The translations under genes were made by a program, and so were the position numbers. Of a stretch of DNA of 64,000 nt, positions 2,718 through 43,559 are shown in pieces. The stretch lies in NCBI GenBank assembly GCA_905250025.1, contig CAJNOJ010000073.1, positions 361,047 through 425,046 of the forward strand. Direction: 5' to 3'. How positions within the stretch are numbered: position 1 is the stretch's first letter; each line of letters opens with the position of its first letter. The notes under the pieces were generated by a model. That model saw nothing but the letters and a program-made list of their open reading frames with translations. It had not been told where the DNA came from and did no database searches. The DNA is from Adineta ricciae (taxonomy: Eukaryota > Rotifera > Eurotatoria > Adinetida > Adinetidae).

Positions 2718-2814
2718 CTAACTTGAAAGATGCCAGTCACCTTCGGTGAAACAAATGTAACAGTGATCGTTGCAACAAGAATATCGTACGTGTATTCTGA
2801 AAACTGTTAAATCG

Positions 2815-3296
2815 ATGACAAGTATTGAGTATTCTAGACGTATATGTACGCAAAAATCAACTGTGATTCTAGCCTTTGCCTTACTAATTCCAATTCTCAC
2901 GATTCCGATAATCATAACTCTGACACACAACAAACTGCATAGCAGTACAGCTTTAACAACGACTACAATCACGGCGGAAACAACATCGACAATAGTTACC
3001 ACAATGCAGACCCGCGATGTCACAACTCAGTTGATAAGCAAAACTACGACAACAAAAAATCCGTGTAAAAACATGCAAACAATGCGATCGCTTTTGATAA
3101 AATGAATAATTGTTTCTTTTTCTAGGCGCGTCCAGTAGTTTGCGTTGGAAAACAGCAGGTAGCACAGTACGTAGCGATTCATCGTCAACACTATCCTGCA
3201 CACATCTGTTCATTGATTCGGATGATACTCTGTATGGTGTTGATAAAGAACGTGCATATGTTTGGAGGTTACCAACAGGTCATACTAATTCAATAA
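2815..3296 (+). CDS. NHL-repeat type II membrane protein, block B copy, 5' part (cut by assembly gap)
   Basis: Exon 1 (2815-3066) encodes a short basic cytoplasmic head, one membrane segment (VILAFALLIPILTIPIIITL) and a Thr-rich stalk. An intron (3067-3125) leads into exon 2, which breaks off at the 6-N gap (3297-3302) after the first propeller strands. Relative to the copy at 16371 there is an extra T near 2793, so the longer N-terminus starting at 2730 is out of frame here and Met 2815 is the supportable start. The missing part of this gene is very probably 42634-43397, because 3131-3296 is identical to 42468-42633. Confidence 0.75.
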
Positions 3297-3302
3297 NNNN
3301 NN
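3297..3302. other. assembly gap (6 N)
   Basis: Six Ns split an NHL exon from an unrelated exon. Sequence on the two sides belongs to different genes, so this is a contig junction, not a small gap inside one gene. Confidence 0.95.
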
Positions 3303-4145
3303 ATAAGCTTCTATTATCGAACACAATTGTTATCTCTCGAACGAAGTTGAATAAGATTTGCAAAATCAATATAGACGATATTGAGAAAGCATGTAAAGTA
3401 TTGATTGACTATGGTTTGTTGTCACTGGAAACAAATGTTTTGGGAAATAAGCATTGCTATTACGAATCATTTCTCAAACAAATTCCGAAAAGTCAATCAG
3501 AATTATTGGATTTTTCAATGGAATTATCCATATTTGGAATTGATAATGTCAACAACTATTATGCTACGTTAAAAACCAGTAAGTTGCATAACGTTGATGA
3601 TTCGCAAACTATTAGTCACGATTAGTCATTCACTTCATTTTTCGTAAATTGGCTGATTCAAATTGAGAGTTCTTTGAAAGTAATTGAGACAGACAAAAGG
3701 ATCTAAAGATTAATAATATTTCGAATGAGGATATTTTTACATGTATGTTTTTTAGTTGATACTCAAAATGCCAAATATCTAACTCCATATGGACAATCGA
3801 TTTTACAACAAGTATATAGTAATCATAATGTGAAAATCAATGAAAGTGCAATCATGCAACCTGTGAAACAGCATTGCCGTCGTTTGTTCAACTCAGGGAA
3901 TGATCAGCATGATTCGGATGAAGAAAACTGTAAGTCTATAGTCGCTGTTCTATAGTTCATCTAATATGTTAACATTATCCTTTATAGTATCTACATTGAG
4001 AACAATTGAAGCAGGAAATGTCGAACAATCATCGGAACCACCGAGTTCGAAGAGTAAAAGACGACGTGAATTGACTGGAAAAGGGAAAGAATACCGAGAA
4101 CAAAGTCAATCTAAAAAGAAAAAAAAGACGATCAGTAGTTTTTAA
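3303..4145 (+). CDS. C-terminal part of an unrecognised protein with a basic, nuclear-type tail
   Basis: Three exons join in frame: 3303-3579, 3756-3929 and 3988-4145, ending at TAA. The 5' part is lost at the N gap. The first exon reads like a small helical, possibly winged-helix, segment (RTKLNKICKINIDDIEKAC). The middle exon contains LTPYGQSILQQVY, and the last exon is hydrophilic with KSKRRRE and SKKKKK clusters suggesting nuclear localisation. I do not recognise the family. The splice sites (CCA/GTAAGT, TTTTTTAG/TT, AACT/GTAAGT, TTATAG/TA) are good and keep one frame, so this is a real gene fragment. The two upstream introns are 176 and 58 bp. Confidence 0.6.
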
Positions 4146-4641
4146 TATGTGTTTTTTATTATGTTCAATTCGATTTGTTAGGACAACTATTTGAACAAAA
4201 CTTTCATTTTGATTTTACGAGTTTTGTTTCAAATCTTTTGCAGTTTTTCCTATTGTACTATCCTGGCAGTGATTGTTGCGTGATTATACGTTTATTTGAA
4301 TGATTTTGTGTATTCTGATTCTTTCTATTTGATCATATACATGAATAAAGGTTGAACTGTTTACTTCACATACATCTTTATCTTCCAACAGGTGGTGATG
4401 CATACGCATTCTACCTTTTTTGCTTTCGAACACGGCATTACATTAAAGCAAGACCGATGATTTGTATATGAGATACTGTGACAGTGTATAAATTGATTGT
4501 ATCTATGACTGTTCGAAATCAAGAGCTAAGTTACGATCTTTTTGTCAATAGTAATCATCATAGCAATGGTAAAACGATGTGTTAGATGCAAAGTACTCCC
4601 AAACATTATCATTCTTTTTCTGTGCGTAAAAAGATGCATNT
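4146..4641. other. intergenic region with single-N contig junction at 4640
   Basis: No gene seen between the stop at 4145 and 4640. An AATAAA signal occurs near 4344 and could serve the upstream gene. The single N at 4640 interrupts the start of the ART-TPR gene: its reading frame is open back to 4630, with a TAA at 4627-4629 and no upstream ATG, so the junction probably removes its 5' end. Confidence 0.6.
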
Positions 4642-6222
4642 ACTATTAGTATCTTCCAAAAATCGGAAACATCCTCTACTGATCTGAACGGTGATTTTCT
4701 ATGGTTTCAATTATTTATCGAAGTACTTTTGCGCATGAAAGATTTTGACGATTCGAAACAGGAGCTTGTCAATGTGGCTTATCAGCAGTATGACAAAGAT
4801 GGACACGAAAAACAGAAGATTGATGAATTCTCTATATCTTATGTCGCATTAAATGCTGTCAAATGGTATACGCGTAACAGTTTCGTTTACCGAATGCTCA
4901 ACAAAGCTTTAAGACAGAAGGACATGGACACACTCTATGCATTTCGCCGTATTATTATCGATATTCATGATCAGTTGGAAGATATGTATGCCCGAAGGGT
5001 AAATAAGAAATCGGTTATTCATCTTTATCGTGGACAATCCATATCACGAGAAGAAGTGGAATGGATTAAAGCTAATGTTGGTAATTTTCTTTCCATGAAT
5101 AGCTTCTTATCCACAAGTATCAATCGAGACGCAGCGCTTATGTTTGCCGAGGCACAAGAAGGTTTTCAAGGTGTTCTATTCGATTTACAAATCGACGAAA
5201 CCTTAGTTGGTGCAAAACCATTCGCAAATATTACATCATTGAGTTATTATCCAGATGAAGAAGAAACATTGTTTATGCTTGGTACTATCTTTCGAATTGC
5301 TCAAGTTACGTTTGATATCCATACAAATGTTTGGGTTGTTAGTTTAGATCTATGCAGCGACAATGATAGTGAATTGAAGCCATCGCTAGATAGTCTCAAA
5401 GAACAGATTGATGATGAAACAAACTTATATGAACTGGGTCGGATTCTGTGGAAAATGAGCCAGTTAGACGCTTCTGAACGATGTTTCAAACGTCTAATTG
5501 CACAGAACCATCCCAATCCAGTTATAATACCTGGTTGTTATTTGCATCTAGGCAATATTGCTGGCAACAAAGGGAATTATGAGCAGGCAATAGCTTATCA
5601 TCGTTGTGGACTGGAATTAAGGCAGAAAACGCTTCCTTCAAATCATCCACATTTGCCTTATTCACATAATGCGCTGGGCGAAGCGCTACGTAAGCATGGC
5701 GATTTTGATGAAGCTTTACAGCAGTATAAAAATGCTTTCATTTTGTGGCAACAAGAGTATAATGGAGACGATCATCCAAATATAGCTATGTGTCTGCATA
5801 ATATCGGCACGATTCATGCACAGCGCAATGAACTACAACAAGCTGTGAATTATTTTACACGTGCATTGCAAATAATGGCAAGATGTTTACCAACAATTCA
5901 TCCTATGGTAGCATCGAGTCTAAGAAATATTGGGTCTATTTTAGGCCTAATTGGGCAATTGGATCAAGCCCGAGAAGCATTCCAGAAAGTAATATCAATA
6001 CAACGTCAATGTCTTCCATCGACGCATCCTGATCTAGCTGGTTCTTTGAGAGATATGGGTACATATCATTTCAACACCGGAAATTTGTCCCAAGCACTTA
6101 ATTATTATCAAGAAGCATCAACTATCCTCCATCAAACATTATCAGTTGATCATCCTTTATGTGTTGAAATTCGAGAAGACATTGCCGAGGTAGAAGCTTG
6201 CCAAGCTTCTCTTCTTGTATAA
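4642..6222 (+). CDS. ADP-ribosyltransferase-TPR fusion protein (5' end missing)
   Basis: The frame is open upstream of the first ATG (4735) back to the N at 4640, and the upstream residues (e.g. DLNGDFLWFQLFIEVLL) match the head of the related genes at 20267 and 45648, so the gene is 5'-truncated by the junction. The first ~240 residues form an ART domain of the R-S-E type: LYRGQS supplies the Arg, MNSFLSTS the Ser-x-Ser strand, and PDEEETLFM the Glu-x-Glu pair expected for arginine-specific mono-ADP-ribosylation from NAD. The C-terminal half holds about five 42-residue TPRs of kinesin-light-chain spacing (e.g. GNYEQAIAYH, GDFDEALQQY, NELQQAVNYF, GNLSQALNYY), a protein-docking scaffold. No signal peptide is visible. 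Unlike its relatives in blocks A and B it has no internal stop. Substrate unknown. Confidence 0.85.
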   Translation, partial: TISIFQKSETSSTDLNGDFLWFQLFIEVLLRMKDFDDSKQELVNVAYQQYDKDGHEKQKIDEFSISYVALNAVKWYTRNSFVYRMLNKALRQKDMDTLYAFRRIIIDIHDQLEDMYARRVNKKSVIHLYRGQSISREEVEWIKANVGNFLSMNSFLSTSINRDAALMFAEAQEGFQGVLFDLQIDETLVGAKPFANITSLSYYPDEEETLFMLGTIFRIAQVTFDIHTNVWVVSLDLCSDNDSELKPSLDSLKEQIDDETNLYELGRILWKMSQLDASERCFKRLIAQNHPNPVIIPGCYLHLGNIAGNKGNYEQAIAYHRCGLELRQKTLPSNHPHLPYSHNALGEALRKHGDFDEALQQYKNAFILWQQEYNGDDHPNIAMCLHNIGTIHAQRNELQQAVNYFTRALQIMARCLPTIHPMVASSLRNIGSILGLIGQLDQAREAFQKVISIQRQCLPSTHPDLAGSLRDMGTYHFNTGNLSQALNYYQEASTILHQTLSVDHPLCVEIREDIAEVEACQASLLV

Positions 6223-6547
6223 AAAGTATTCGTATTACTATCAAAATATTTTGTTTCCTAACTTGCTTATGCTCAAATTATCAAACACGAATTAAAAAAT
6301 TCATTATATTCTAAGAAAGATGAAATTTCCCGTGTGCGATACCTCCATTTACATAAATGTGTACAAGAGATGATTTCAGTCGTACGCACTAATCGAAAGG
6401 GTATGTGGATATGTGTATTCTCATCCATAGTTAGAAATATTGTGAACAATCGAAATAATCGCTAATTTATCAGAATAATCATAATTTTATCTCATCCATA
6501 GAAATGACAAAATCGCAAGAGTAAGGTTAGTTTGTCTAAACCGGTAT
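6223..6547. other. intergenic region between convergent genes
   Basis: Separates the 3' ends of the ART-TPR gene (plus) and the rhamnosidase (minus). AT-rich; nothing else recognised. Confidence 0.6.
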
Positions 6548-9500
6548 TTACTGCCATACAACTTGAAATTCATACCGCCCGGATCCGATGTGAACTGTCA
6601 TAAAGTCGGTCCTAGTATCACGTTCGACTGCAAAGTTTCGAACATGAGTGAACTCTGCACTAGCTAATGACCAAATAGTTTGATTATCTTCGAGCAATGT
6701 AATGCAACGACTGCCGGGAAATAACGGTTCAAATACAACTTTTGCTTGTGTATTGGGCGGTATGATGACGCTCATCAAAATCGAGTTAGCAACTGTATCA
6801 CGCTCGTCACGTGTGTAAGATACTTGAACAAGACCATAGAGCGTACTTAATTGGCAGTTGATTTTACTTAATAGATGTTTTTTTGTTTCAGATACCATAC
6901 GTGGTCTAATAGTAATTCCTGTGGAAGAAAGGTCAATACCAGCTAAATGTGAATAGAACCAAGCCCCAACACTGCCATACATAATATGATTGCGTGAATT
7001 CATACCAGGTCCTTCCGATGGTGCGTCCCATAATTCCCAGATCGTAGTAGCGTTTTCATATGGATTCGTAAACATGTAACCATACGATGGATATGTTGTA
7101 GAGGAAATCAGTTCGACTGCCAGATCATGATGGCCATTGTCAGATAAAAGTGGATATAACTGTGCAGTAGACACGATGCCAGTAGACACGTGGTTATTTT
7201 TTGCACTAATATCGCTCAGTAGATGATTGAATACGGTTACTCGAGCATTCTCGGGAACGACATTAGGTAATGCTAAAGCCAGAACTTGAGCGGACTGCAT
7301 TCCATCAGCATAGTAGTTCGCTGCTGTATTGAAGAAAACGCGATGAAATTCTTCGGCAAGTTGTTGATAGAATGCTGAATAGGCTTGACTATCGGCTGTC
7401 TTGCCAAGTACTTGCGACATATTAATCAAAATAGACACATCATGAAGGAAAGCAAATGACGCGATTAGATGCTCATTAGTCATCGGTTGTGGTGGTGGTG
7501 GAACCCAATCACCAAATTGATAAGCAAGATTGACGAGACCTGTGTTATTATAGCCACCACGTATATTTTCGACGTATGCACGAACATGATCATAATAAGT
7601 CGATAGAATCTGACTATCATTATAATGGCGATAGAGTTGCCAAGTGATTGTTGGCAAAGCAGTACCCCAATTAGGATCCGCTGGGTAACCACCGCCATTC
7701 GGCACGACATCGGGTATAGCTCCATTACTCTGTTGAACATCGCAGATTAAATTCAGAAAATTTACATAGAATTTGATTAAATCAAAGTTGTACAAGGCTT
7801 CATTGACTGAGAGTGCAGCATCACCCATCCAGCCACGTCGTTCATCACGTTGTGGACTAGTAAAATGCAAAATTAATTATGATATTTTCGACCAAAAAAA
7901 GGTAAGGTTAAGAAAATTTTACCAGTCTGTAGGTACCGACATAATGTTACTCAATTGACCCCATTGAATATTATGTTGAATTTGATTAATAATGGGACTG
8001 CTACTAATAAAGTTTCCTTTCAAAACTGTTTCACTATGCACGACAGGACATTCAACATCATCGACGGTGAGCGGGTTTGGTGCTCCAGAGACTTGGAAGT
8101 ATCGAAAGCCATGTACAGTGAAACTACAATATCAAACAACTACATATATCGTCATCAAAAATTAAACATACGTCGGTTCATAAATTTCACCATTTGGATC
8201 TCCACGTAGGATATAAGTATCAAATTGTGTAGCACCGCGCAGATTCTCAGTGTATATTCCTCCGGTGGACTGACTGAAACGGGAAGATTGAATTCATAAA
8301 TACTAACATATTAATATATATTACTTACCCTGTGGAATGTAGTGGCTGTGCCAAAATCTCCGCATGACGAAAATATACACCTACACCACGGAGACCGCGT
8401 AATCTGACTCGACACCAGCCAACCATATTCTGACCTAGATCGAATGTATGTATTCCTAAAAAACCCATTCAGCACAACAAACAAATGAGTTTTTCCCGTC
8501 AGAATGAAAGCTTACCAACCGTCGGTTGAGATACGCTGATTGGTTTCAATACACTTCCACGTCCATCTCTGAACGAAGCACCTTGAATGTATTTGAGGTT
8601 CATCGATTTCAAATAATCTCTCTCATGGTTAGACATATCTGTTTCAATATGCAATGCATCGAATCCGGCTCGAATCGGCGGCATATCTTGCAATACTAAT
8701 TGACCATTACGTGCTTCACTAACTGGAGATGGTAACGAGTCTGCCATGATCCAAGCAGATAATGAATCATTAAATCCGGGTCGTGCCCAATCGACACGTT
8801 CATTTCGTGCATCGTACGATTCGCCATTGTAGACACTATCGCGTAGAATAGATCCTTGTCGACCAGACCATGTTTGATCACTGAGAACTTGCATCTGTTC
8901 ACCGTTCTGAAACGTAATATTCAAAGTAAAAAGTAAACGAGGCGGACCTACAAATTCAAAATGATGACTTTCATCGTAGAAGAGGTTTGTTACCATAAGT
9001 TGGTATTCCTAGTTGTTCTCCACTATACCAACCGTTTCCAAGTTTCACTCCTACAGCATTCATACCAGCCTGCAATGATAAAATTAATTAAAGATAATTT
9101 CAATTAGAGGAAAAAGATTTCAACCGAAATGTTTGATGTCACATCGAAAGTTGCGACCAATGTACGTATTTCGAACGTTGTCCAACCAGGATCTAATTTT
9201 CGACTGGGGTCAACATTGTAACCATTTATGTAAAACTGATAATAACCAATACCGGATATATAAACAATTGCCGAACGAACTGGACTTGTATTTGGAACTA
9301 GAAATTCTTTTCGTAATTCATTCATATTGATCTTCGTCGAACCAATCCATAAAAGATTTGCATTGTCGGTTAAATATTCGTTCAAATTGAAGATTGCCGT
9401 TCGAAAATAAATCCATTCAGTCCATTCACTGGACTCATTCGGTATACTAGTCCAAATACGCAAACGAAAGCGGTATCGGGCTCCAGCAGATAGATCATAT

Positions 9501-9820
9501 CGACTTGCATATGGCACATGGATAGATTGTGTCGATACAATTCGTCCACTATCCCATTGAAATAAATTATCTTTTGCTGAAACTTTTATCGACTCAAGCT
9601 GGATTTGGTAAGCTATTTGTTCAATATTTCTTTGGGACGGTTCATTATTATTTGAAATTTTCCAAGAAAATCGAGGTCGTGGTGTATTTATTACAAGATC
9701 ATGAATTGATCCTGTTTTGTAATGATCGATGCGAACATCGAATGGAGACGGTAGTTGTGCATGAGCCACACAACCAAGTATGAAAACGAACAAACCAAAG
9801 TTAAATAACAACCGAGGCAT
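6548..9820 (-). CDS. secreted alpha-L-rhamnosidase, glycoside hydrolase family 78
   Basis: Seven exons on the minus strand give roughly 970 residues, a normal GH78 length. Exon 1 (9820-9125) starts with a signal peptide (MPRLLFNFGLFVFILGCVAHA) followed by an Fn3-like region and the N-terminal rhamnosidase beta domain. The exons near 9069-8994, 8950-8508, 8457-8334 and 8275-8173 continue the beta domains. The sixth ends at 7921 and splices to 7861 so that the junction restores TDCPQRDERRGWMGDA, the family's acidic catalytic motif. FGDWVPPPP and TIWELWDAP are further (alpha/alpha)6-barrel landmarks, and a C-terminal beta sandwich ends in VVWQ. It should release L-rhamnose from plant or microbial glycans outside the cell. 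Rhamnosidases are rare in animals, so bacterial or fungal origin is likely, but six introns show adaptation to the host. Confidence 0.9.
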
Positions 9821-10520
9821 TTAGTATTTCATCATTTTGCAAGATAGCGGTGAAAAAGTATAGTAGTTAATTTCTTTTTTCGGCTGCTTTTATATCAAAA
9901 GGTATCAACACTGGCCAAGGTCAAGATAAAAGTATTATTATACTCAGAATAGAAAGTGCTGATTATATGATATACCCTCAACGTTAACAGGTGAATCTGA
10001 GTTTTAATATATTGAGCATGTGCGGTTGTAGATATTTTCTCTGCATGCGTGTATCTTTCAATACAATTCAACTATCGTGATGAAATACCGTACAATCAAA
10101 ACTCACGATAGAGGGTGCTCTATGAATGAAAATATGATTGAACAAAGTAATTCATATAGAAATTAATCAGCAGAGAAAATAAAGTCACTGACGTTCTTTG
10201 AGTATTTTTCTCTATGAGACAAATATTTGTATGAATCATGGATGTTATTACCCAACCGCCGTTGCATCATAAACGACAGGAAGAAAAGAGAAAAAAAAAG
10301 ATATCACTGTGTTTTTTCCCAGTGTAGTAATTTCGCAATAAATACTGTGTCTTCTTTTTCATACGTTTCATTCGACAAATTGCAAACCTACGTCTACAGA
10401 CAAAACCGTCTTTTCAAAGTGACTTTCGGCATTTTCGGCTACAAACCTTCATCACAGCAAGACTCGCCTGTTCCTTCATCAACTTCACATATACTATGTT
10501 GTCATCCGGAATCAAATTCA
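9821..10520. other. divergent upstream region of rhamnosidase and bZIP genes
   Basis: Holds the 5' flanks of two divergent genes. A TATA-like stretch on the minus strand lies near 9890-9897, about 70 bp upstream of the rhamnosidase ATG. An open frame from 10242 runs in frame into the bZIP exon but its composition looks non-coding, so it may be leader or an alternative N-terminus. Confidence 0.4.
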
Positions 10521-11247
10521 ATGTCGTATACACCACAAATGATCAATACCGGAAGGCTTCCTTCCGAAACAAATTCGGTAAGTATCAAACCTTTTTTTAA
10601 AACTAATAGCCAAAATAACATTTGTTCTGTCTATTATTTAGACATTTCAGGCGATAAACTTGCTGGCAGACGACTCTTATACTGAAGCATCGTTTGATCT
10701 ACTATCATCCAACCTAAATATTCTCAGAGACAGCGAATTTTTAGAGACGCTTGATAATGTTGATTTGAACGATCCGGAATTCAATAAGTTTTTAGGTGAT
10801 TTTACTAACGATAATTTACTCGCAGAGCTGCCCAATTCTACTACTGATCCATACACTTATCAATACGATTCGATGCAGATGCCACCAAGTGAAGCCAACA
10901 ACAGCGATACGATCTCATCATTAGACTCCGTTTCAGATGAGTCCAGATCGAATATCGCTTCTGTTTCTCAATGGACTCGATTTGGAAATAAGAAAGTACT
11001 CAAATATACGGAAGAATACCAACGTCGACGATTGAACAACAATAGAGCGGTACAGAAAAATCGAGAGAAAGCTAAAGAAACAAAAAGAACACGAGATTTA
11101 CAATTAGCAATATTGCTCGAAGAAAATCAACGGCTAACTAGTACCGTCGATTCGTTAACAAAAGAAATTGGATTGTTAAAATCATTCTGCGAAGCAAATA
11201 GTCTTAAGTTACCTATCAGTAAAACTCAATCAAATAGATTGCACTGA
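10521..11247 (+). CDS. C/EBP-like bZIP transcription factor
   Basis: Two exons (10521-10577 and 10642-11247) join in frame to give about 220 residues. The N-terminal two thirds are acidic and Ser/Thr/Asn-rich, as in activation domains (e.g. LGDFTNDNLLAEL). The basic region RRRLNNNRAVQKNREKAK has the Asn-x-x-Ala-x4-Arg DNA-contact spacing and is followed by a leucine-zipper-type heptad array (LAILLEENQRL, then further Leu/Ile positions). The pattern is nearest C/EBP and PAR-type bZIPs. It should bind DNA as a dimer in the nucleus. The start is uncertain: ATG 10521 is preferred, though the frame stays open up to ATG 10242. Confidence 0.8.
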
Positions 11248-11540
11248 TTGATATTATTTTCCTTTTGTTTATTTTTCTTGCATCATATTAATAAAACAAA
11301 AAACGACGTGTAATTTTCACGCATAATAAAGCGAGAAAGAACAGAGACGGATAGATATTAATCCTGAATTTCTTCTGAAGTCGTTTCGTTCTAATAAATT
11401 TCAATGCTACTGCGTCCTTTTCTTTCGTTGCAGGAAAAGTGACGGTAAACATTTTTTCCTACTGTCTATGCAGTTCTCACACACCGTACTCTGGACGTCA
11501 ATCAGATGATGGAAATATTTTGCCAGTCCTGAAAAAATCA
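11248..11540. other. intergenic region
   Basis: 3' flank of the bZIP gene with AATAAA-like signals near 11290 and 11322. No gene recognised. Confidence 0.5.
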
Positions 11541-11786
11541 ATAAATCTTTACGGCGAAAATATGCTCCTTTCAGCGAAATTGCTCTCATATTCGTGCACA
11601 AGTATTCGATTTAGCTTCTGACTTTGTTTGTACAGCATTCGACGAAAGAATAAACATAAAGAAGAAAAAGAGAGCACACGTTTCTCTCGCTCTCAGCGAT
11701 TATAAATAGATGAAAGCACTGCATTACATCAACCATCGTTTCATTTTCGTTTTTGGTTCAGCTGTGCAAGTATTCTGGTGAAAGAG
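11541..11786 (+). promoter_or_regulatory. duplicated promoter of caspase-like gene 1
   Basis: About 245 bp nearly identical to 14125-14370 upstream of caspase-like gene 2. Contains TATAAATA at 11701-11708, a plausible core promoter 78 bp before the ATG, and a shared leader (CATCAACCATCGTTTCATTT). The conservation of non-coding sequence with the paralogue indicates duplication of the promoter together with the gene. Confidence 0.65.
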
Positions 11787-13108
11787 ATGTCGGGACCATT
11801 TGGCAACAATCGTTCGCGTCGTAAGGTAGCATTGGTGATCGGTAATGCTGCTTACCGAAAGAATCCGTTGCATAAGCCATTGAATGATGCAGCTGATATG
11901 ACCAATGCTTTGAAAAAAATTGGGTTTCAAGGTGTCACGCGTACAGATATGGATTTTGAAGACATGGAAACATGTAGACGTCAATTTGTTCAAGCGATTC
12001 AACCTAATGATTTGGTTTTATTCTACTTTTCCGGACATGGAAAGCAATGGGAAGTAAGAGAAAGTCACAACGTGAAAAAGATCATGGAAGAATGATATTA
12101 TTCTAGGATCATAATTTTCTACTGCCCTGTAACAATCAAAACATAAATGATAGTAATATTAATCAATATGCGATCAATGCGCAATGGCTTCTTGACGACA
12201 TATCCAAACGTCGTCCACATGCTATTGTGTTTATATTGGAGTGTTCTCGCGAATATGTTTCACGGAAACCAACACATGTTGGTATGAAGAGTGGACGTTC
12301 AGGTAAGTTTGAACAACCGAGATCAGGTATAAATGCATGTAAAAGAACAAGAGACACTGATACATGGCAACCTTATGCAGTACAAGATTGTAAGGCGACT
12401 AACTTTCGTATTCTGTTGTAGACGATCCTGCACCCGGCGTTTCACCAAGTATTAAGATTTGTTACGCCTGCCAAGGTGGCAAATCAACAGTTGAAAACAA
12501 CGTTGATAGAAACAATATGTACACAAAGCATATTCTTCGACATATTGCAACACCTAGAAAACAAATTCAAGATTTGTTTATAGTCATTCACAATGCTGTC
12601 TTTGAAGAAACCCATGAAGCCCAGGAACCTTCCTCAGAAATGTCGCTGAAAGATCCAAACATCTACCTTTGTGATGCTGATTGTGAGGAGCAAAGTGGAA
12701 GTAATTCTGATCGCGAGGAACAAAGTGGAAGTGATGGCGATCATGAGGAACAAAATGGAAGTCATGAAGAAGATCATGGTAAGGATGATTTCTGCTCTTC
12801 TTCTCAGCAGTGTTTTCACGCAACAGAAAAGTGAACTTGACGATATGCATAAATATGCGTTCGATTTGATTTTGACACGTTGTTGTAAAAATACCTTTGA
12901 GAAGAAAATACCTGTTTATCTACTCTCATCTTCAAAACATGTTTTAGGTGGATATCATGGATTTTCACAAGGTAACATTTCTTTCATGCTTTGCTTAGCT
13001 ATAATCTATGGCCGTTATTCTTCAGGTAGAACCTCACATCACTTTCATGAAACAGTGACCGTTATAAAACATAATTATGGCGGATGGACCGGCCCACGGA
13101 GATCGTGA
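11787..13108 (+). CDS. caspase-fold (peptidase C14-like) protein 1
   Basis: Exons 11787-12053, 12107-12302 and 12422-12778 are well supported; short exons near 12949-12971 (YHGFSQ) and 13026-13108 are tentative. The N-terminal domain is a caspase/metacaspase p20 fold: ALVIGNAAY strand, NDAADM helix, then LFYFSGHG with the catalytic-type His. The Cys position falls in FILECSREY, so the dyad is present, but the flanking residues differ from paralogue 2 (LLDCCRNY) and the usual D-x-C context is E-C here. The C-terminal part is acidic with three tandem copies of a EEQSGS/EEQNGS motif. Exon 1 ends at the same codon as in gene 2. The product is probably a cytosolic cysteine protease or a caspase-like adaptor. 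Confidence 0.7.
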
Positions 13109-14124
13109 GCAAAATCTTCCAATGTAAACAAGTCTCATAAGCGATGAGATAACGAATATAAACATTGATCGCACTTATTTTTCATTTTCTGTATTATTCA
13201 TGATATCATAATAAAGTGAAAATGAGAAAGTTTTGCACATTTTTTTCGATACGGTTTCTAATGAATATATGTACAACAATAAACAGATCGCAGAAATACG
13301 ATGTATGAGTATTGCACATACTTTACTTGGACCTTGACAATGCATGTACATTATTCAGAAAAGGACTACTGGTAATTCACTTTAGCAGGTGAACTACGTT
13401 TCGTACCATCTATTTCGAACATCTGACAAAGTGTCCGGATGGTCGGAATCGAAATTATTTTTCGAAAATTTCGTGCCGGAGTTCGAACATTTTTACCGGA
13501 TGTTCAGATATCTCTTGCATAGAAATGGTTTCAAAACTAGCAGAAAAGTTGTCACAAGTGCGCGAAATCTAGAGTTAAATTCACCCTCAAGCAAGACTGG
13601 ATAGGCTTAGGCGCCGTCACTTAATCTGAGTGCCAATTTTACATTCTCATTCACTGAAAAAAACGCTATTGATTTACCTGGAGTTTCACTTTTACGGACT
13701 CCGTGACGAAACCTTCACAATTATTTTTTTTTCACGGGCTTCGTAACGGACATCTACGCTGGAAGTTCGAAAAAATAACGTGGTAAGGAACGTCATGTTC
13801 CCACTTTCGCGAGGATGATTGTTGTTCATAATTCAGTGGAACAAACATATATGAAGAATAAACTTGTTTTTCTTTTTCGATTGTTTCTTCTATATTCAAG
13901 ACAAGTAGTCACAAACAAAAAATATTCTCCTTTTTGAATGTGACATTTACTGGAGAAAAGAAAAGATTCATATTGTAATCTCAGCCATCTAAGAAGAATC
14001 GAAAGATTGCCATGATTACTTGCGCGCACACACGTTTATGTCATCATCAACAATCATACCATTGCTGATCCTAATGGACAAAGAATATACTAAAATTTTC
14101 TTCATTGAGGCAAGCAAACAAATA
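13109..14124. other. intergenic region
   Basis: About 1 kb without a convincing gene. Small ORFs (13389-13604, 13826-14029) show no recognisable domain. AATAAA signals near 13211 could end caspase-like gene 1. Confidence 0.5.
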
Positions 14125-14370
14125 AATAAATCTTTACGGCGAAATATGCCCCTTTCCGCGAAATTGCTCTCACATTCGTGCACAAGTATTCGATTTAGCT
14201 TCTGACTTTGTTTGTACAGCATTCGACGAAAGAATAAACATAAAGAAGCAAAACAGAACACATGTTTCTCTCGCTCTCAGCGATTATAAATAGGCGAAAG
14301 CACTGCATTACATCAACCATCGTTTCATTTTCGTTTTTGGTTCAGTTGTGCAAGTATTCTGGTGAGAGAG
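14125..14370 (+). promoter_or_regulatory. duplicated promoter of caspase-like gene 2
   Basis: Counterpart of 11541-11786, with TATAAATA at 14285-14292 and the same leader. A few substitutions and small indels separate the two copies. Confidence 0.65.
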
Positions 14371-15533
14371 ATGTCGAGATCATCTGACAATAGACGTTTG
14401 TATCGTAAGATAGCATTGCTGATCGGTAATGGTGCCTATCCTGGGGACTCGCGCCTGTACAAAACCGTGAACGATGCGCGGTTTATGAGTGAAAAGTTGA
14501 AAAATATTGGCTTTGAAGTTATCATAGGCACTGATTTGAATCTGGACGGAATGACATCCCGTATAAAGCGATTTATTGATCGGATCGAGCAAGATCATCT
14601 GGTTTTATTCTTTTTTTCCGGTCACGGCTCACAGTTGGAAGTAAGATAGGTTCCATATACTGGTATTTATTATGGAACAGTGATGTTATGCGATTCATTT
14701 TAGGATCAAAACTATTTGTTACCGATTGACTATAAATCTTTACACGGTGCAAGCTTGAGTGATCGATGTATTAATGCACAAAAAGTACTTCGAAGTATAA
14801 GTGATCGCAACCCGTTTGGTGTTGTGTTTCTGCTCGATTGTTGTCGTAATTACAGTTTCCGTCCTCATGAACTCCAGCGTGGTGTCTGTGGCGCCACTAC
14901 AGAAAGCGGAGGGCTCAGAAAAATGGTTGCAAGAGGAAGTACTATTATCGGTTTCGGTGCTACACCTGGTAAATCATCGACGGAATCTTCAAATGATGAT
15001 AACGGGAAATTTACCAAGCATCTCCTTAAGCATATTGCGAAACCCAATCTGCAAATTCAAGATTTATTGGCGATAGTTACCAAACAGGTTGCTGAAGACA
15101 CCGAAGGCAGACAAGAACCTTGGGTGACTGGAAATCTGAGATACGAAAACATCTGTCTTTGCGATGGTGATGCCTATTCGAACAATCGTGGATGTGAGGA
15201 ACACAGTGGAAGTGATTATGACGGTATGTTCTATTCTTTGCGAAAAGCTTGGCGCACGTATACATTCATTGGACGATTTGTTTATATACTAGCCCAACAT
15301 GTCAGTTTTCTGCATCTGATTGACTTTCGAAACATATTTTAGACGTATGCGACGAACAGGACGACACGCAATATGGAAGGTGTCGTGGATATGCGAGAGG
15401 TAACACAGTTGCTTATGTTGCGTTTAGTAATGTTTGTGTGTGCTTTTTTTCAGATGATCTAATGAATGAAGTGAAAAGACGAATGGAACTATTTACTGGT
15501 AGAGATCTAGACGGCGATGGAAAAATCGGTTAA
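14371..15533 (+). CDS. caspase-fold (peptidase C14-like) protein 2 with EF-hand-like C-terminal loop
   Basis: Exons 14371-14640, 14704-15223, 15343-15399 and 15454-15533 join in one frame. The p20-type domain has ALLIGNGAYPG, NDARFMSEKL, LFFFSGHGSQ (catalytic-type His) and VVFLLDCCRNYS (catalytic-type Cys), so both dyad positions are conserved. GFGATPG follows, as in metacaspase/caspase-like proteins. The C-terminus is acidic and ends in GRDLDGDGKIG, which matches the first nine positions of an EF-hand calcium loop but stops before its final Glu. Tandem paralogue of the gene at 11787 with the same exon-1 boundary. A cysteine protease role is likely; calcium dependence, known for metacaspases, is only suggested. 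Confidence 0.8.
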
Positions 15534-15985
15534 TGAACGCACCGAACAAGGCTAATCAAACGGAAATAAATCTCATAACTGACGAGATACGGAACACGGA
15601 CGTTTTTTAAAGTTATTTTGTCTTGATGATAACAATAAACTGAAACTGTACCACTACATGTTCATACTGTTGTTCTGGAATTAATGATTACCATGCGTTA
15701 GAGCGCGAGATTCCGCTTCTTATAGCTGCGTATGAAGAATATATTATCGTTCCTTCACAAGATTCATGCTTATTCTATAATACTATGATAGATCTGGTAA
15801 ATTCGTGAGGATGGAGTAAGGATCTCTGACAAATATAGCAACTGTCTCTATCCGAGTTCTAGCATATTTCATTACTCTGTTTTTTGTATCTATTCTTTGA
15901 GAAAAAAAGGTACTTCTCGATCTCTGTTCTCAAATAACTGACGTCAAACTATTTCATATGCGTAATGATCAATGATATTCTCACA
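15534..15985. other. intergenic region before block A
   Basis: No gene recognised. An AATAAA-like signal near 15631 probably ends caspase-like gene 2. Homology to 2350-2717 starts at about 15990-16010. Confidence 0.5.
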
Positions 15986-16370
15986 TAAGTGAAAACATGA
16001 CTTTTGCTAATATCTATAACAGAGTTTGCTTTATGCGTTCGCATGAAAATCCAAATAGTAGAAAGAAAGAAAAAATAAACGATGACAAATTCCTTTCTTC
16101 TGCTTCGGATTTCTATTCCTACTGATGAAGGTTCTTTTCAATTCGCTCGAATAGAAATCACGTCAACATTTTGATTGATGATAGAAATAAGTAGATTATT
16201 ATAAAAGAGAACTAAAGTAAGATTGTGTTTTTGCAGTATACAGACAAATATTCAGTTTTCTGCACCTCGAGACCTGCTAAAAGGTATGTTTATGCGAGAA
16301 AATCAGTTCTTTTTTTGAAAATTTTTATTCTCTTTACTTAAAATTATTAGATTATCAACTAATTTGAAAG

Positions 16371-17706: not shown

Positions 17707-17867
17707 AAGTAATTGTACGTTACCTTATGTAACTTTTTTCATTACAGTTTCAAATCATGTTCTACGTAATGAAAATGCTTTTTCTTCTATGTTTGATTCT
17801 TTGCAAATCGAATGAAAGATAAATAAATAGTATGTACAACGTTTCAACGCATGCATCTGGAGGAAAT

Positions 17868-25999: not shown

Positions 26000-26057
26000 T
26001 AAGAACAAATATTAATAAAGTTAACTACAGCTTGTATATGTGCATACAAAAGAAAAG

Positions 26058-28529: not shown

Positions 28530-30031
28530 ATGACTTCTCTGTTTTATATATTTAATAAAGAAAACGAATAGAAGGATAAATATACAAAAAATAATGTTTA
28601 TTAAGCAGTACACTAACGAAGACTTCAATTTGGTGATGAAGAAAGGCGATAAACATAACAATCGCCACAATTGGTTATCGAAATTGATGCAGGTCAGCGA
28701 CACGCATTATAATTATCATAGAAATAAACCAAAACCGTTTTGGTTTGTCCCAATTCTATCCGATGTGTATCATTGATATATTCACGATAAGTTGCATCGC
28801 ATCAGTAAGCTGATGATAGCGGTGTTACGATATGCATTCCTGCATCTCAACTGAAACGAACCCAACGTGGGACAGAAAAGTCAGTTGAGTTTCAAATACT
28901 TGCTGATTGAGTGTAAAGAACATTTCGTGTTTCATCAGTATTGTTACTATAAAAAAGACATTGAGACCGGAAGATTGTTGGAACAGCTAAAATAGCCGTT
29001 GACTTACTAACACTACAAAATGTGTCGCCTAGAGTAATTGGCACGGAAAGAGACTGAGAACAACATGTACTGATTAAACAAACACTGAAATTCGACCGAC
29101 AAGTAAGATTGTCTCCACACGTTTGTAATAGTTCGCAGGAAACAGAAAGAGCACAACATGTCTCGTTTGTCAGAAGTAGTGGGTAAGCATAACATGTCTG
29201 AGTTGATGAGAATGAAGATCTGGTAGCATTATTTGTTGAACAAAGGGGAACGGAACATCCCGATATTGATCGAACAGTTTGTGCTTTGAAGAAAACAATA
29301 TGATAACCTTTTTGTTTAGTCATAAAGGATTATCCATAACTGCTTGAAGAAATAGTATGTATACTACGCAGAACACCAGGTTTGTCGTTAAAATTCTGTC
29401 CGGATTATTTGCGGTTTGTGCAGATATCCAGTCGCATTATACATACATGAATTACATCAATCAATTCCTAATAATTAGGCTCTAAGAAGAATGTACGTTA
29501 TTGAAAATTTCATACTGAATGGAAGTAAACATCTCCCAAGAAGTCGTTCATCCCGAGATGAAAAACAACTGTGCCATTTGCTGAATACATAGTCGATCCT
29601 GTAGTTCCTAATTTCATCGGAACTTCTTACTTCCTCCAATGTTGAATTAGGCTGTTTTGGCCAACATCAGTTATATGTACAGAAAATAACGAGCTACATA
29701 TTTAGACGAATTCCTATGCTTCTGGAGATGAGTCACCCTTTCAATTTATTGCGCAGTAATTACCATATGATTCGGATGGAGCGAAAAGTAGTGATTTTCG
29801 AATATTGTTTCAAAAGGAACTCGTCTGATTGTGACTATTACTGCAGATGTCTCCCTACTTCATACATCTTTGAGCGAAAAGAAACAAATATGTAATCTTC
29901 TGCACTTGATTGGCCGAGAACAATATGGCAATGGTAGATTGAATTTTCAAACAAAATTTCATTTCTTGCGTTCTTGATCAAACGAAAGCCGTCGTAATAA
30001 TCATTTCTAAGTATACTCAGTGTTATTAACA
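28530..30031. other. intergenic region with a possible cysteine-rich ORF on the minus strand
   Basis: 1.5 kb. The minus-strand frame 29323-28892 has a cysteine-rich pattern (LQTCGDNLTCRSNFSVCL, then STCCSQSL) reminiscent of small extracellular modules, but no start, signal peptide or splice support is clear, and copy B has a deletion through this part (near 55175). It may be a decayed gene. Confidence 0.3.
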
Positions 30032-31157
30032 ATGAATCCGGAACCTTCTGCACCACCTCCACCTTACGAATCGGTGACGAACGTAAACCGACAAAATCCA
30101 GGTCAAGAACGTATGCCTAACTTCGATCAGTTTATTAATCGTTATGAAAGTAATTGGAATAGATGATTAAACACACGACTATTTACATCTTTTTAGTTAA
30201 TCCAAGTTTCGCTGAACGATTGTATAAGCTGAAAGGCTATGAAATCGTTTTTATCTGCGATGATTCAGGTTCTATGAGTGCACCTATTGGTAAATGATTC
30301 ATTTCTTATTCATTAAAACAAAGAGAACAGTTTTTTTTGTATAGGTGACGCCTCCAATCCATATGAACGTCAGAGAACACGCTGTAAGAATCCTTTTATT
30401 TTCATAAGTGCCACACTGAAATATATACCTTAGGGGATGAATTGAAACAAACTGTATCGATCGTCGTCGATCTAGCGAGCATTCTTGATTCTGATGGTGT
30501 TGATGTTTACTTTCTCAATCGTGAACCTATGCTGAATGTACGTAATTCATCAGATTTAGAATTTATCTTCGCTATGGAACCAGAAGGTATAATTTCATCA
30601 AAACAATAGTGATTTTCTTTACGAGTAATCACCTTAGGCGCAACACCAATCGTTCCTGTTCTTCGTCAAGTACTTAAAGACAAACGTAATCAAGTCTATG
30701 AGCGAAATTTACTAATTCTCTTAGCTACTGATGGTATACCAACCGATGAAAGAGAACGTACAGACATTCAAACGTTGGAACACGTGTTGAGAAATGAACG
30801 TCAACCAATCGATCGAATTCCAGTTACAATTATTGTTTGTACAGGTAGATTACAAACAATTGAGAATATGTCAATTGTGATGTGATCTATTCTAGCAGAT
30901 GATGATCAATCAATGGCGTATTTAAATGATTGGGATAAAAGAATTCCGAATCTCGATGTTGTTGATGACTATCGTAGTGAAAGACAACAAATTCAAGCAT
31001 GTCGAGGAAAGAATACTCCATTTAGTTTTGGTGATGTAGGTTGCACGATTTCTTTCTTCATTAGTGTCTCACCTTTGCTCTGTTTCAGTATATCGTTAAA
31101 ATTTTACTTGGTAGTATCGATAGTTGGTTTGACAATTGGGATGAAACAAATCGTTAA
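30032..31157 (+). CDS. von Willebrand factor A domain protein, copy A
   Basis: Seven small exons with GT-AG introns of about 45-75 bp join in frame from ATG 30032 to TAA 31155-31157. The N-terminus is proline-rich (MNPEPSAPPPPYESV, with a PPPY motif for WW domains). The vWA domain starts KGYEIVFICDDSGSMS, giving the D-x-S-x-S MIDAS metal site, and continues with VSIVVDLASIL, LLILLATDGIPTD (second metal-site Asp) and VTIIVCTADDD. It ends LLGSIDSWFDNWDETNR. There is no signal peptide, so it is an intracellular vWA protein; many such proteins act in complexes. It is convergent with the G-gamma gene. Confidence 0.85.
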
Positions 31158-31278
31158 TGATCATAATCTGTGATAATTGTGCATTATTTCTCATAAATTG
31201 AATAAATTTATTTACGATCAAAAAGAATAAAGAAAGAAAAATGTTGTTTATTTGTTCGAAAAATGGCCGATTTCAAGC

Positions 31279-31476
31279 TTATGCGATAAGACAGTGTTTT
31301 GATTTTTCATATTCATCTTGTTGGTTTTTGTGGCCAGCGATAAAGGCATCTTTCGATTGATGTTCTTCGCAGTATTTGATTAAATCTTTGCATGCTACTG
31401 ATACATTGATTCGTTGAATCTTCGCTTCAGCGCGTAATTGTTTGACAATTGCTTCGACGTTTAAGTCGTCCGGCAT
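31279..31476 (-). CDS. heterotrimeric G-protein gamma subunit, copy A
   Basis: 65 residues from MPDDLNVEAIV. The helix IVKQLRAEAKIQRINVSVAC, the DLIKYCEEH segment and the C-terminal CLIA box match the G-gamma (GGL) family in order and length. The CaaX cysteine should be prenylated, anchoring the G-beta-gamma dimer at the membrane. It may contribute to signalling by GPCRs such as the one at 36593. Its counterpart in block B is damaged. Confidence 0.9.
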   Translation of the reverse strand: MPDDLNVEAIVKQLRAEAKIQRINVSVACKDLIKYCEEHQSKDAFIAGHKNQQDEYEKSKHCLIA

Positions 31477-32290
31477 CTTCACGTCTTACGGCACTTTCTT
31501 TCTCTATCGAAGGAAATAAATAAATATACACGTTCATCAATCATCGTCCGTCATTTCATATTTTTCTAGAGAAAAAAAAAGTGTTCTAATCATTGATATT
31601 AACCACATGTGCATCGACTATGACTAATCGATGTCACGAACACGAGACTAAAGGCCAACTGAGGTCTCGTCATGTGCTGAAGAGAAAACGCATCTTGATG
31701 AAAGGGATAACTAAATGTGAAAACTAAAAATCAGTAAGATCGCGATTATCGTAACAACACGTGTCACTATTTTTCATCCACGTCGTGCGCATGCAACAAT
31801 ATCAAAACATGCTATATTCATATCCATTCGTTTGACATGACAAATTAATTTATAGATAGAATAAATCATCATTACTATAGAATTGGGAATTCGATAAGCA
31901 CAACTAGCCGTATAATACGAGCTGAATGAACTACAGGCATACATAAAATATAACACAAGTTTGAATTTATTAAACATCATTTCGAAACGTGAACACCGCT
32001 ACACTGAGCATACTGTACTACAAGATGTATTGGTAACTTGATGCAACTCATATTTGAAAACCACACATCTTCTTCTCTGTATGGTGTTTCCTGTTGTGAA
32101 AGGAGTTTCATACATATTTGCATGATTAAATGTGCGTAAAGACAAGTACAAATGATTGCTATGCATTTAACTCGCATAGATGACGAATTGTCATACGATT
32201 GACGAAAGAGAATGTATATAATCGTCTGATTCGAATAAGATCAGGTATTATTATTGTGGACTCTGCTCGCGTATTAGTTAAAAGAAGTGA
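31477..32290. other. intergenic region
   Basis: About 0.8 kb with no recognised gene; part of it (31570-32160) is missing or rearranged in block B. Confidence 0.5.
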
Positions 32291-32640
32291 AAAATGTCGA
32301 CTACAAACGTCATTGCACAGTTCGCGAAACTCGACCGTATTTTCCAAGTCTTCGCGCGTAAAATGATCTGGTCTCGTTGTATTTTCATTTTCTTGGCTGT
32401 GTTTATCGTCATGAAGAAGAAGATTTCGAACCAATTGATTTCGGTAGAGATGGTGACGGCAATTGTGCGTGCAAAACAATGGGTGGAATCTGATTTGGTG
32501 ATGGTGAACAACAATGTTATTTTATCGGTGGTACTCGTATTGTTGAGTGTGTATCCGGTAGAAAATGGGAATTGGCCAAGAAATGTCGTTGAAATTGTGA
32601 TTCGAGAGAGAGAGAGAGCGGTCGAATTCCTTTCTGTAAA
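32291..32640 (+). pseudogene. degenerate cysteine-rich secreted protein (third family member)
   Basis: In the frame containing DFGRDGDGNCACKTMGGI the strand encodes the same cysteine module as 33258 and 34335: CACK, QQCYFIGG, VECVSG, KWELAKKC. Two stops interrupt it (TGA after GGI, about 32488, and TGA after KKCR). The longer open frame at 32294-32665 is in another frame and unrelated. The copy B homologue begins at about 57440 and is interrupted by the hAT insertion. Confidence 0.6.
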
Positions 32641-32665
32641 CTATGAAATCGATTTTGATGTATGA

Positions 32666-41015: not shown

Positions 41016-41822
41016 ATGTCAACAACAAAAAATATTTACTTTGCTCGTCATGGTGAACGTATAGATCAAATTGATCCATCATGGTGTAAAACAGCACAAA
41101 ATCCATCTGATCCTCCATTGTCACCTGATGGTATTCAACAAGCAAAGGAACTTGGAACATACATTGCTTCGCTTCAACCACGTATAACTCATATTTATGC
41201 TTCACCATTTGTGCGCACGATTCAAACAGCATTGGAAATCGTTAAACTAGTCAACAAAGACTATTCAGCACCGGATCAAATCGTTAAACTTCTCATCGAG
41301 CCTGGATTTGCTGAGTTTTACATAAGTAATCCCGAATGGACGGAAACGAACATCTTTCGAACTTTAGATCAATTATCTGAGATTGTTCCGAATAGAGATT
41401 ATTTCAATGAAAATTATCGTAGTGTATTCGATGCGAAGTATTATCTCGATTTAAAAGTTGAATCTCGTGAACGCTTACGTGATCGATTAAAACGAGTTTT
41501 ACAAAAAATATTAGACGATCATAAAGATGACTGCAATATTTTGATTGTTACGCATGCAGCTGCACTGATTGAAGGTGTACGAGCATTTATTACACTTAGT
41601 AAAGAAGAACAAATGAAGATTACGGCAACGGACGAGAACACGAAATCTTTGACTTGGGATATGACTTCAGTTCGACCTGGTGTGTGCAGTCTAACACATT
41701 TTGAATTCCTAGATGATAAATGGAATTTGAAAGCTAGTGGACTTACTTCATATTTGTCCAAAGGTGAACAACGCGTATGGGTCTTTCCTGATGATGAAAC
41801 AATCGATACACAACGGAAATAG
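41016..41822 (+). CDS. histidine phosphatase superfamily protein (phosphoglycerate-mutase-like)
   Basis: Single exon, 268 residues. FARHGER at residues 9-15 carries the phosphorylated His of branch-1 histidine phosphatases; SPFVRTIQTA gives the second Arg, EPGFAEFY the acid, and IVTHAAALIEG the second His. Length and the EPGFAEFY form resemble UBASH3/Sts-type and fungal PGM-like phosphatases rather than glycolytic mutase. Cytosolic, substrate unknown. No signal peptide. Confidence 0.88.
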   Translation: MSTTKNIYFARHGERIDQIDPSWCKTAQNPSDPPLSPDGIQQAKELGTYIASLQPRITHIYASPFVRTIQTALEIVKLVNKDYSAPDQIVKLLIEPGFAEFYISNPEWTETNIFRTLDQLSEIVPNRDYFNENYRSVFDAKYYLDLKVESRERLRDRLKRVLQKILDDHKDDCNILIVTHAAALIEGVRAFITLSKEEQMKITATDENTKSLTWDMTSVRPGVCSLTHFEFLDDKWNLKASGLTSYLSKGEQRVWVFPDDETIDTQRK

Positions 41823-42109
41823 TTGGTCACGAATAATTGCCTTCGATATTTGTGAAATCATGTTTTTTGTACTTTTAGCATTCCAGAACGTTTATTAAGC
41901 TTATTCTTTTATAATTTAGTGGAATTATTTATATGCGATAACACGTCATTGTAACTTAGATATATTTTTCAGTTACTGAAATATCACTGCAGTTATTTGA
42001 TATTTTTGCAAAAAGGTTAAGCTCAAAGTGATGACACGAACGAATCTTCCATCCTCAACAAAATACATCATGAAAAAACACTATTTCGAGTACATTGAAA
42101 TAATTCGTG
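41823..42109. other. intergenic region
   Basis: Convergent 3' ends; nothing recognised. Confidence 0.5.
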
Positions 42110-42466
42110 TTAGAAAAATGGTAATTTGATCATAAAATGACTTTCATCATCTAATGGAATAAGTTCTGTTTTACATGAATTTGTGTATTGTTTCAAAATT
42201 GACACAGCATGTTGAAATTCTTGATTAAAATGTTCACCATAAATTAAATCAATCGAACAATAAACTCCACTAAAGATCAAATTTGTTAATACAATCGAAT
42301 CATGTCCTTCGATATCAGTTTTCATCATAATTTTCGATAATGGTAAATCTGATGGTATTTTTCGAGTTAAAACTGTTCTTTGAATCCATGAAGCAATGTC
42401 AATACTTGAAACTATAATCTTTGTTTTATTTCTATTTGGTATTAAACTTGAACCCCATTGATTATA
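42110..42466 (-). CDS. FkbM-type methyltransferase, C-terminal part (cut by contig end)
   Basis: The frame enters at 42466 (next to the single N) and ends at 42110. SIDIASWIQRTV, then SKIMMKTDIEGHDSIVL is the diagnostic SAM-fold segment of FkbM methyltransferases (K-x-D-I-E-G), followed by YGEHFN and a C-terminal FMIKLPFF. The N-terminal half lies beyond the junction. An apparent extension into the NHL sequence across the N is an artefact of the join. Confidence 0.7.
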   Translation of the reverse strand, partial: YNQWGSSLIPNRNKTKIIVSSIDIASWIQRTVLTRKIPSDLPLSKIMMKTDIEGHDSIVLTNLIFSGVYCSIDLIYGEHFNQEFQHAVSILKQYTNSCKTELIPLDDESHFMIKLPFF

Positions 42467-42467
42467 N
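42467..42467. other. single-N contig junction
   Basis: The N separates a minus-strand methyltransferase exon from a plus-strand NHL exon. The 166 bases after it repeat exactly those before the gap at 3297. Confidence 0.9.
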
Positions 42468-43397
42468 TCCAGTAGTTTGCGTTGGAAAACAGCAGGTAGC
42501 ACAGTACGTAGCGATTCATCGTCAACACTATCCTGCACACATCTGTTCATTGATTCGGATGATACTCTGTATGGTGTTGATAAAGAACGTGCATATGTTT
42601 GGAGGTTACCAACAGGTCATACTAATTCAATAACTGTTGCTGGGATTCCAGGATCAAAGGGTAACGATAGTTTCAAGCTGAACTATCCCGAAGATGTTTA
42701 TGTTGATCGACATGGAAATATGTACGTAGTTGACAGTAACAATCATCGTGTACAAAAGTTCATAAACGGAACATCGAGTGGGATAACAATTGCAGGCACA
42801 ACTGATTCAGGTGGTTGTTCGCTGAACCAAATGTATTATCCTCGGGGCTTCGCCTTTGATCCTAGTGAGACATTTATGTACGTTGCTGACCGAAGTTGTC
42901 AACGAGTTTTACGCTATCGAACAGATTCGAATTCGAGTACTAGTGAATTTGTAATAAATAGAGACACAACAGCAGGCAATTCAGCCAAACAATTGAATGG
43001 ACCGTGGAGCATTCATATTTCATCATCGAAATCAGATGAATTGTTCATAGTAAACCACGACGGACAGTCCATAACTCGTTGGGCAGTAGGTGACGTTGAA
43101 GGTTCTTTCGTGGCAGGTTTACCGGGTACTTCATGCACCAATTCCAGTTGTTTCCATGATCCGACTGATGTTAAACTTGATATTTATATGAACATGTATG
43201 TCGTTGATGGAAATAATCATCGAGTCCAGATGTTCTGTAAGAATAGTCGAATAGGCATAACTATTGCTGGAAATGGTACTGCTGGTACAAGTACGACACA
43301 TCTGTCTTATCCGCAAGGTATTGCATTTGATTCGAATATGAATATGTATGTCTGTGATACGGGCAACAGGCGTGTTCTGAAATTTGACAAGTTTTAA
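42468..43397 (+). CDS. NHL-repeat protein, block B copy, 3' part
   Basis: Starts inside exon 2 (SSLRWKTAGST) and runs without disruption to FDKF and TAA at 43395-43397. It differs from copy A (16772-17706) at few residues, e.g. Arg for His in DKERAYV, Ser for Gly in ADRSCQRV and Phe for Leu in DELFIV. DKERAYV is shared with the fragment ending at 3296. Propeller motifs as in copy A. The 5' part is most likely 2815-3296. Confidence 0.85.
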   Translation, partial: SSSLRWKTAGSTVRSDSSSTLSCTHLFIDSDDTLYGVDKERAYVWRLPTGHTNSITVAGIPGSKGNDSFKLNYPEDVYVDRHGNMYVVDSNNHRVQKFINGTSSGITIAGTTDSGGCSLNQMYYPRGFAFDPSETFMYVADRSCQRVLRYRTDSNSSTSEFVINRDTTAGNSAKQLNGPWSIHISSSKSDELFIVNHDGQSITRWAVGDVEGSFVAGLPGTSCTNSSCFHDPTDVKLDIYMNMYVVDGNNHRVQMFCKNSRIGITIAGNGTAGTSTTHLSYPQGIAFDSNMNMYVCDTGNRRVLKFDKF

Positions 43398-43559
43398 AAG
43401 CAACTGTACGTTACCTTATGCAACTTTTTTCATTGCAGTTTCAAATCACGTTCTATGTAATGAAATGCTTTTTCTTCTATGTTTTATTCTTTATAAATCG
43501 AATGAAAGATAAATAAATAACTAGTATATACAACGTTTCAACGCATGCATCTGGGGGAA

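Follow-up and report, generated by a model that had tools for sequence, protein, structure and literature searches.

The window, a 64,000-base stretch of the Adineta ricciae assembly, carries two copies of one region, A and B. With a probability of about 0.95, these are the two haplotypes of a single locus laid end to end, with B nested in a break of A. Both the apparent duplication and the order of genes across 3297-42467 most likely arose in assembly, and 3296 should join 42634. The duplication itself would most likely belong to a recognised class of artefact, the false (haplotig) duplication, rather than be a real feature. We consider A and B haplotypes because they are colinear, because the join restores an exon of 316 codons, and because an insertion site is filled in one and unfilled in the other. 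They are probably alleles on homologous chromosomes. Otherwise, the stretch would be readable as a 15-38 kb duplication with doubled, truncated genes. The gene counts and gene order in the stretch would not be trustworthy because it most likely contains a misplaced piece of the partner chromosome.

Contig tips and junctions

The window corresponds to C73:361047-425046, its right edge being the end of scaffold C73. Upstream coordinates are negative, with 0 at C73:361046. Genome searches were performed on the 130.46-Mb assembly of 1033 contigs. Runs of Ns occur in the window at 3297-3302 (6 Ns), 4640 and 42467 (one N each), and 48358-48424, and upstream at −3253, −4657, −19169 and −20607. The G+C content by segment was 32-38%; the value given for A. 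ricciae in PMC5916493 is 35.6%. For a telomere-like pattern, the reversed control of the pattern is the same repeat. The contigs, overlaps and junctions are as follows.

2364-3296, plus strand: haplotype A, end of the left contig, with the 5' part of an NHL-repeat exon; 92.2% identical to B 16006-16942
3131-3296, plus strand: 166-base overlap, first copy (contig suffix), equal to 42468-42633; the sole overlap found for tip 3296
3297-3302, no strand: 6-N junction, judged false; its sides share no overlap, and the NHL exon is cut
4640, no strand: single-N junction, judged false; its sides share no overlap, and the contig ending at −19170 closes with exactly the bases of 4641-4764
4641-42466, plus strand: haplotype B contig (haplotig), probably misplaced inside A; 36,090 of 37,826 bases lie in order on A-left, A-right and C949 at 91.4%
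16777-16942, plus strand: haplotype B version of the 166-base overlap; 2 of 166 sites differ
42467, no strand: single-N junction, judged false; C949 passes the point equivalent to 42466 without a match to 42468 onward (E 1e-6), and a frame of 273 codons in C949 is cut
42468-42633, plus strand: 166-base overlap, second copy (contig prefix), equal to 3131-3296
42634-57487, plus strand: haplotype A resumed, continuing 2364-3296; colinear with B 16943-32342, the exon being open across 3296|42634

Contig tips were compared over 114 kb of C73 and the start of C949. Of 342 pairings, 18 of a tip with itself were skipped and 324 were compared; one 'tip' is the edge of the stretch compared and no contig end. 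Four distinct overlaps were found in total, each on both strands. Two were exact dovetails of at least 15 bases: 3296 to 42468 (166 bases) and −19170 to 4641 (124 bases). The other two were near-exact and lay across their own gaps, −20608 to −20606 (221 bases) and −19170 to −19168 (218 bases). Similarly, in a table of 21 gaps, those at −20607 and −19169 had overlaps at 99% across the gap itself, and weaker ones were present at 48358 (48 bases, 94%) and at one gap on C497 (245 bases, 94%, off the tips). Gaps 3297, 4640 and 42467 had no overlap across their own gap, and the tips of the small contig at 3303-4639 overlapped none of the tips compared.

The 166-base overlap runs from the last base of one contig to the first base of another. 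The earlier note had reported 3131-3296 and 42468-42633 to be identical; indeed, they match letter for letter, at 166 of 166 positions. Its further observation that the homologous block differs at two sites was likewise confirmed: 3252 is G where B has A (16898), and 3274 is A where B has G (16920). By itself, this identity is weak evidence because it falls in a conserved exon in which A and B differ at just these 2 sites; its tip-to-tip position is the stronger point.

B also has better neighbours than those it was given. On its left, its first 124 bases (4641-4764) are an exact suffix of the contig at −20606 to −19170 (C73:340440-341876), and the match includes two of the last three contig bases, at which haplotype A differs. 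At each of its ends, this 1.4-kb contig overlaps both haplotypes. On the right, B is paralleled by C949:165-10234 as far as 42466, beyond which C949 continues without a match to the 114 kb compared, 42468 onward included; C949 argues against the 42466|42468 junction. C325, whose first base falls at C949:10594 in an alignment at 83% identity, may continue B, C68 being about equal at 82%.

Colinearity of the copies and the genes at their edges

Haplotype B was aligned to A-left, which ends at 3296, to A-right, which begins at 42468, and to C949 (positions 1-11734 of 13,830), using the plus strand only and dropping pieces that overlapped better ones by >30%. Fourteen ordered pieces cover 36,090 of the 37,826 bases of B at 91.4%, with 1,736 bases outside the kept alignments. 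The identity was 93.2% between A −19071 to −10325 and B 4641-13448, and 85.6% in a 2.5-kb stretch, A −10338 to −7821 and B 13496-16013. On B, A-left ends at 16942 and A-right begins at 16777, the 166 bases between these points being common to both. Thus, B bridges the break in A without a gap.

Searches with the B block and with 41500-42466 listed no third long copy near 90%, one of them having scored 39 of 64 candidates; the exceptions were short, chiefly 294 bases on C68 at 99%. Absences from the earlier, longer queries are weak: a 16-kb query, with 38 of 87 candidates scored, missed a 93% upstream match that was later found by local alignment. Later queries were 0.97-1.5 kb. A third partial copy at 2364-3296 was considered and rejected, because it would call for an exact tip-to-tip match to A that stops at a contig break.

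We next consider the frames at the contig edges. With 3296 joined to 42634, the NHL exon is open across the join and comprises 316 codons bounded by stops. The exon of B also has 316 codons and is recognised by Pfam NHL (E 6.1e-22). The contig edge at 4641 cuts an ART/TPR frame, which counts 526 codons in B alone against 551 in A; placing the contig that ends at −19170 before 4641 yields 551. A minus-strand frame cut at 42466 has 118 codons left in B and 273 in C949. The claim that the junctions cut genes therefore stands for the open frames at 3296, 42466 and 4641, including the NHL exon and the ART/TPR frame, while the FkbM label attached to one of them was not confirmed: the frame cut at 42466 had no match to a family of Pfam or NCBIfam at E values up to 10.

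These observations bear on whether the duplication is real. A haplotig duplication should have an assembly gap between members of a pair on one scaffold, and gaps are present at 3297-3302, 4640 and 42467. By a criterion of our own, its copies should also be colinear with common outer flanks; the copies are colinear and a flank is shared, this sharing being seen on the left side only. A real duplication should have gap-free sequence across the copy junctions, yet all three junctions are Ns. Nor, again by our own criterion, should a gene broken at an edge be made whole by other neighbours, yet the frames cut at 3296, 4641 and 42466 each become whole with a different neighbour or are intact in the other copy.

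The misplacement first proposed in the earlier note, with 3296 joining 42634, was upheld by the tip overlap, by the colinearity of B with both flanks and by the restored exon of 316 codons. Its nested-haplotype explanation likewise agrees with 36,090 of 37,826 bases of B lying in order and with the better neighbours on the left (−19170) and right (C949). Its treatment of the 39 kb as one misplaced contig held in part: 4641-42466 is misplaced, but the interval comprises two contigs of different origin, 3303-4639 and 4641-42466.

Insertions and alternative arrangements

The remaining parts concern two insertions in haplotype A and one small contig.

1-2363, plus strand: right end of an insertion into haplotype A that spans 10,161 bases, −7797 to 2363 (C73:353249-363409)
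16006-16014, plus strand: single copy in B, GCTAATATC, of the target site of this insertion
57519-64000, plus strand: insertion in A at the scaffold end, with a 164-base perfect terminal inverted repeat whose partner is C949:1-164
62894-63427, in the insertion at 57519-64000: hAT-type C-terminal dimerisation region (Pfam Dimer_Tnp_hAT, E 1.4e-10)
3303-4639, plus strand: small contig that intrudes here and nearly repeats a part of A's insertion, with 98.2% identity over its full length to −1734 to −397 (C73:359312-360649)

The 10,161-base insertion has a 28-base terminal inverted repeat, matching at 26 of 28 positions, and is flanked by a 9-base target duplication, GCTAATATC, at −7806 to −7798 and 2364-2372. 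Dispersed copies of it end at or near 2363. The insertion site is not perfectly clean in that 22 bases to the left of the first GCTAATATC in haplotype A are absent from B. A site filled in A and unfilled in B is the picture that would be expected of two alleles. Five frames of this insertion matched no family at the curated cut-off. Three frames of the insertion at 57519-64000, other than the one with the hAT-type region, similarly matched no family. The link from 57487 through this element to C949 is suggested by the order of B and by the common 164-base terminal repeat.

The contig at 3303-4639 is separate and lies outside the haplotig. A genome search with it listed itself, the copy at −1734 to −397, and C497, which matches its first 413 bases at 95%, and it would be either another copy of A's element or an assembly variant of it. 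Its resemblance to sequence just 3.7-5 kb upstream in the same contig might suggest that it is a genuine neighbour of 3296, an extra copy of a piece of the insertion, and that only B is misplaced. We regard this as highly improbable: the contig interrupts an NHL exon that is whole when 3296 is joined to 42634, and its tips match none of those compared.

Equally, it is very unlikely that A and B are paralogous segments of one chromosome in the assembled order. Such a segmental duplication would explain why both copies share one scaffold and one orientation with about 91% identity, and further direct pairs occur within single scaffolds, gap-free in the parts compared (C226, 94.0%; C212, 92.1%; C395, 91.5%). 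However, it would need A to be broken in an exon exactly where two tips have 166 identical bases in common, as well as an accidental match of the start of B to the tip at −19170, and C949 speaks against its 42466|42468 junction. The overlaps between tips, the open frames that become whole and C949 led us to reject a plain tandem duplication. It is extremely unlikely that A and B are homologous and truly in series on one chromosome in some other order, for example with B after C949. The data do not fix the place of B beyond its neighbours, and PMC5916493 describes homologues linked in the 2013 assembly of A. vaga, but A and B have the contig C73:340440-341876 in common on one side, as the arms of a bubble would, and so do the two arms on the other side of that contig.

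The preferred reading, in which A and B are haplotypes of one locus, may be explained as follows. In a strongly heterozygous genome (about 91% identical at this locus), the assembler would have built both arms of the bubble and broken arm A at 3296/42468, leaving the 166-base overlap unmerged. The scaffolder would then have filled this break with arm B (4641-42466) and the transposon-derived contig (3303-4639). Mis-mapped read links may have caused this layout, and the small contig may have been drawn in by read pairs from the near copy 3.7-5 kb upstream. The proposed order of A is C73:341878, to 3296 (equal to 42633), to 57487, to the inserted element, to C949. That of B is the contig C73:340440-341876, then 4641-42466, then sequence equivalent to C949 beyond 10234.

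A second case upstream and known systems

A second case lies on C73 approximately 58 kb upstream. A contig end at 267997 overlaps a contig start at 306808, tip to tip, at 175 of 176 bases, and 38.8 kb, compared in part only, lie between these tips. Within the inner sequence, 270668-273036 matches 265630-267997 at 93.7%, and 272858-276051 matches 306805-309999 at 90.4%. The inner sequence ends at 306806 and overlaps the contig starting at 340440 over 287 bases, 285 of them identical. Based on the overlap offsets, the homologue of the outer arm was predicted about 33.8 kb upstream. Two 1-kb outer-arm probes matched at 289.3 kb (94%) and 281.2 kb (91%), about 1 kb off the prediction, and an earlier probe matched at 305.8 kb (96%). 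The prediction of a contig end at about C73:262.96 kb, in overlap with the start of the inner sequence (267999), failed: the 701 bases there are without an N and gave no good alignment with the initial 120 bases of the inner sequence. Overlapping both haplotypes at each end, the contig 340440-341876 looks like one shared between two heterozygous bubbles.

Seventeen loci, hand-picked from earlier searches and not random, were compared in 136 pairs, leaving out rows below 78% or 150 bases. Direct pairs at 91-94% occur on three scaffolds, at spacings of 26.5 kb (C226), 23.3 kb (C212) and 7.3 kb (C395), and a further pair is split between scaffolds C14 and C38 (94.9%). The three direct pairs may be nests or real tandem copies. 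Bubble arms placed in series could be systematic in this and like assemblies, so that much of the linked-homologue signal would be artefact, although we put the odds of this slightly below even. If so, tip overlaps between distant gaps would reveal the artefact from the assembly alone, without reads. The tip-overlap test itself is applicable to any gapped assembly. Two nests of 37.8 and 38.8 kb would make up about 18% of this 425-kb scaffold, raising gene counts and falsely linking homologues. Such linkage in bdelloids has served as evidence on asexual genome structure (PMC5916493). The linked-homologue architecture was once proposed for ameiotic bdelloids.

In the passages of PMC5916493 that address this architecture, the A. 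vaga 2013 assembly has 25 homologous blocks on the same scaffold (2 tandem and 23 palindromes) and A. ricciae has 2 tandem; many collinearity breaks span scaffold gaps. An excerpt of PMC7953838 states that artificial palindromes can come from erroneous scaffolding. The arrangement in the window resembles the tandem cases: homologous copies follow each other in direct order on a single scaffold. The class named false heterotype duplication in PMC9516828 is recognised there by a read depth of one half, assembly gaps separating the pair, discordant read pairs and one-copy k-mers. Our case is like it in that divergent haplotype copies lie on one scaffold with gaps between them and with genes split or falsely gained. 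It differs from the cases described in that part in that the haplotig is nested in a break of the other haplotype, and the true neighbours are indicated, without reads, by tip overlaps left unmerged.

Insertions in haplotype A

Haplotypes A and B are most likely alternative arms of one locus. In A, a 10,161-base insertion (window -7797 to 2363, negative coordinates lying upstream) is flanked by a 9-base target duplication and bears an imperfect terminal inverted repeat of 28 bases. Further copies of its right end were found at other loci, and scaffold C546 (L014:145-737) carries matches to both ends, near each other. A search of five frames of the insertion returned no family at the curated cut-off.

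Approximately 1.2 kb of A (window 47437-48654) has no counterpart in B. Within it, inverted repeats of 100% identity (47579-47724 and 48425-48570) flank a 67-N gap. This segment looks like one more insertion.

A hAT-type element, whose terminal inverted repeat is perfect over 164 bases, occupies window 57519-64000 plus C949:1-164 in A. One end lies on C73 (contig CAJNOJ010000073.1) and the other forms the start of C949. Its site in A lacks about 70 bases that B has, and no matching target duplication was seen. Separately, window 58131-58251 and 63880-64000 form a perfect 121-base inverted repeat, the latter arm being the scaffold's final bases.

Other contig arrangements on C73

A 38.8-kb segment of the same scaffold, C73:267998-306807 (window approximately -93048 to -54239), has a layout resembling that of the main nest, in which one haplotype arm was most likely placed within a break of the other. 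The flanking contigs overlap tip to tip (175/176 bases identical). On the left side, the predicted contig end near C73:262.96 kb was not found in the 701 bases examined.

Both ends of a 1.4-kb contig, C73:340440-341876, overlap each of two haplotypes. This contig is likely the common link joining two bubbles, pairs of haplotype arms between common flanks.

Matches on other scaffolds

Window 42073-42366 matches C68:82056-82349 at 99% identity across 294 bases, beginning directly after an N at C68:82055. Either a further misplaced contig tip or recent copying may account for the match.

Pairwise comparison of 17 chosen loci (136 pairs), not a random sample, yielded, among others, three further direct pairs on single scaffolds, which may be either nests or genuine tandem copies.

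Direct pairs within single scaffolds (identity range over the three, 91-94%)
C226, 76.6/103.1 kb
C212, 149.6/172.9 kb
C395, 44.1/51.4 kb
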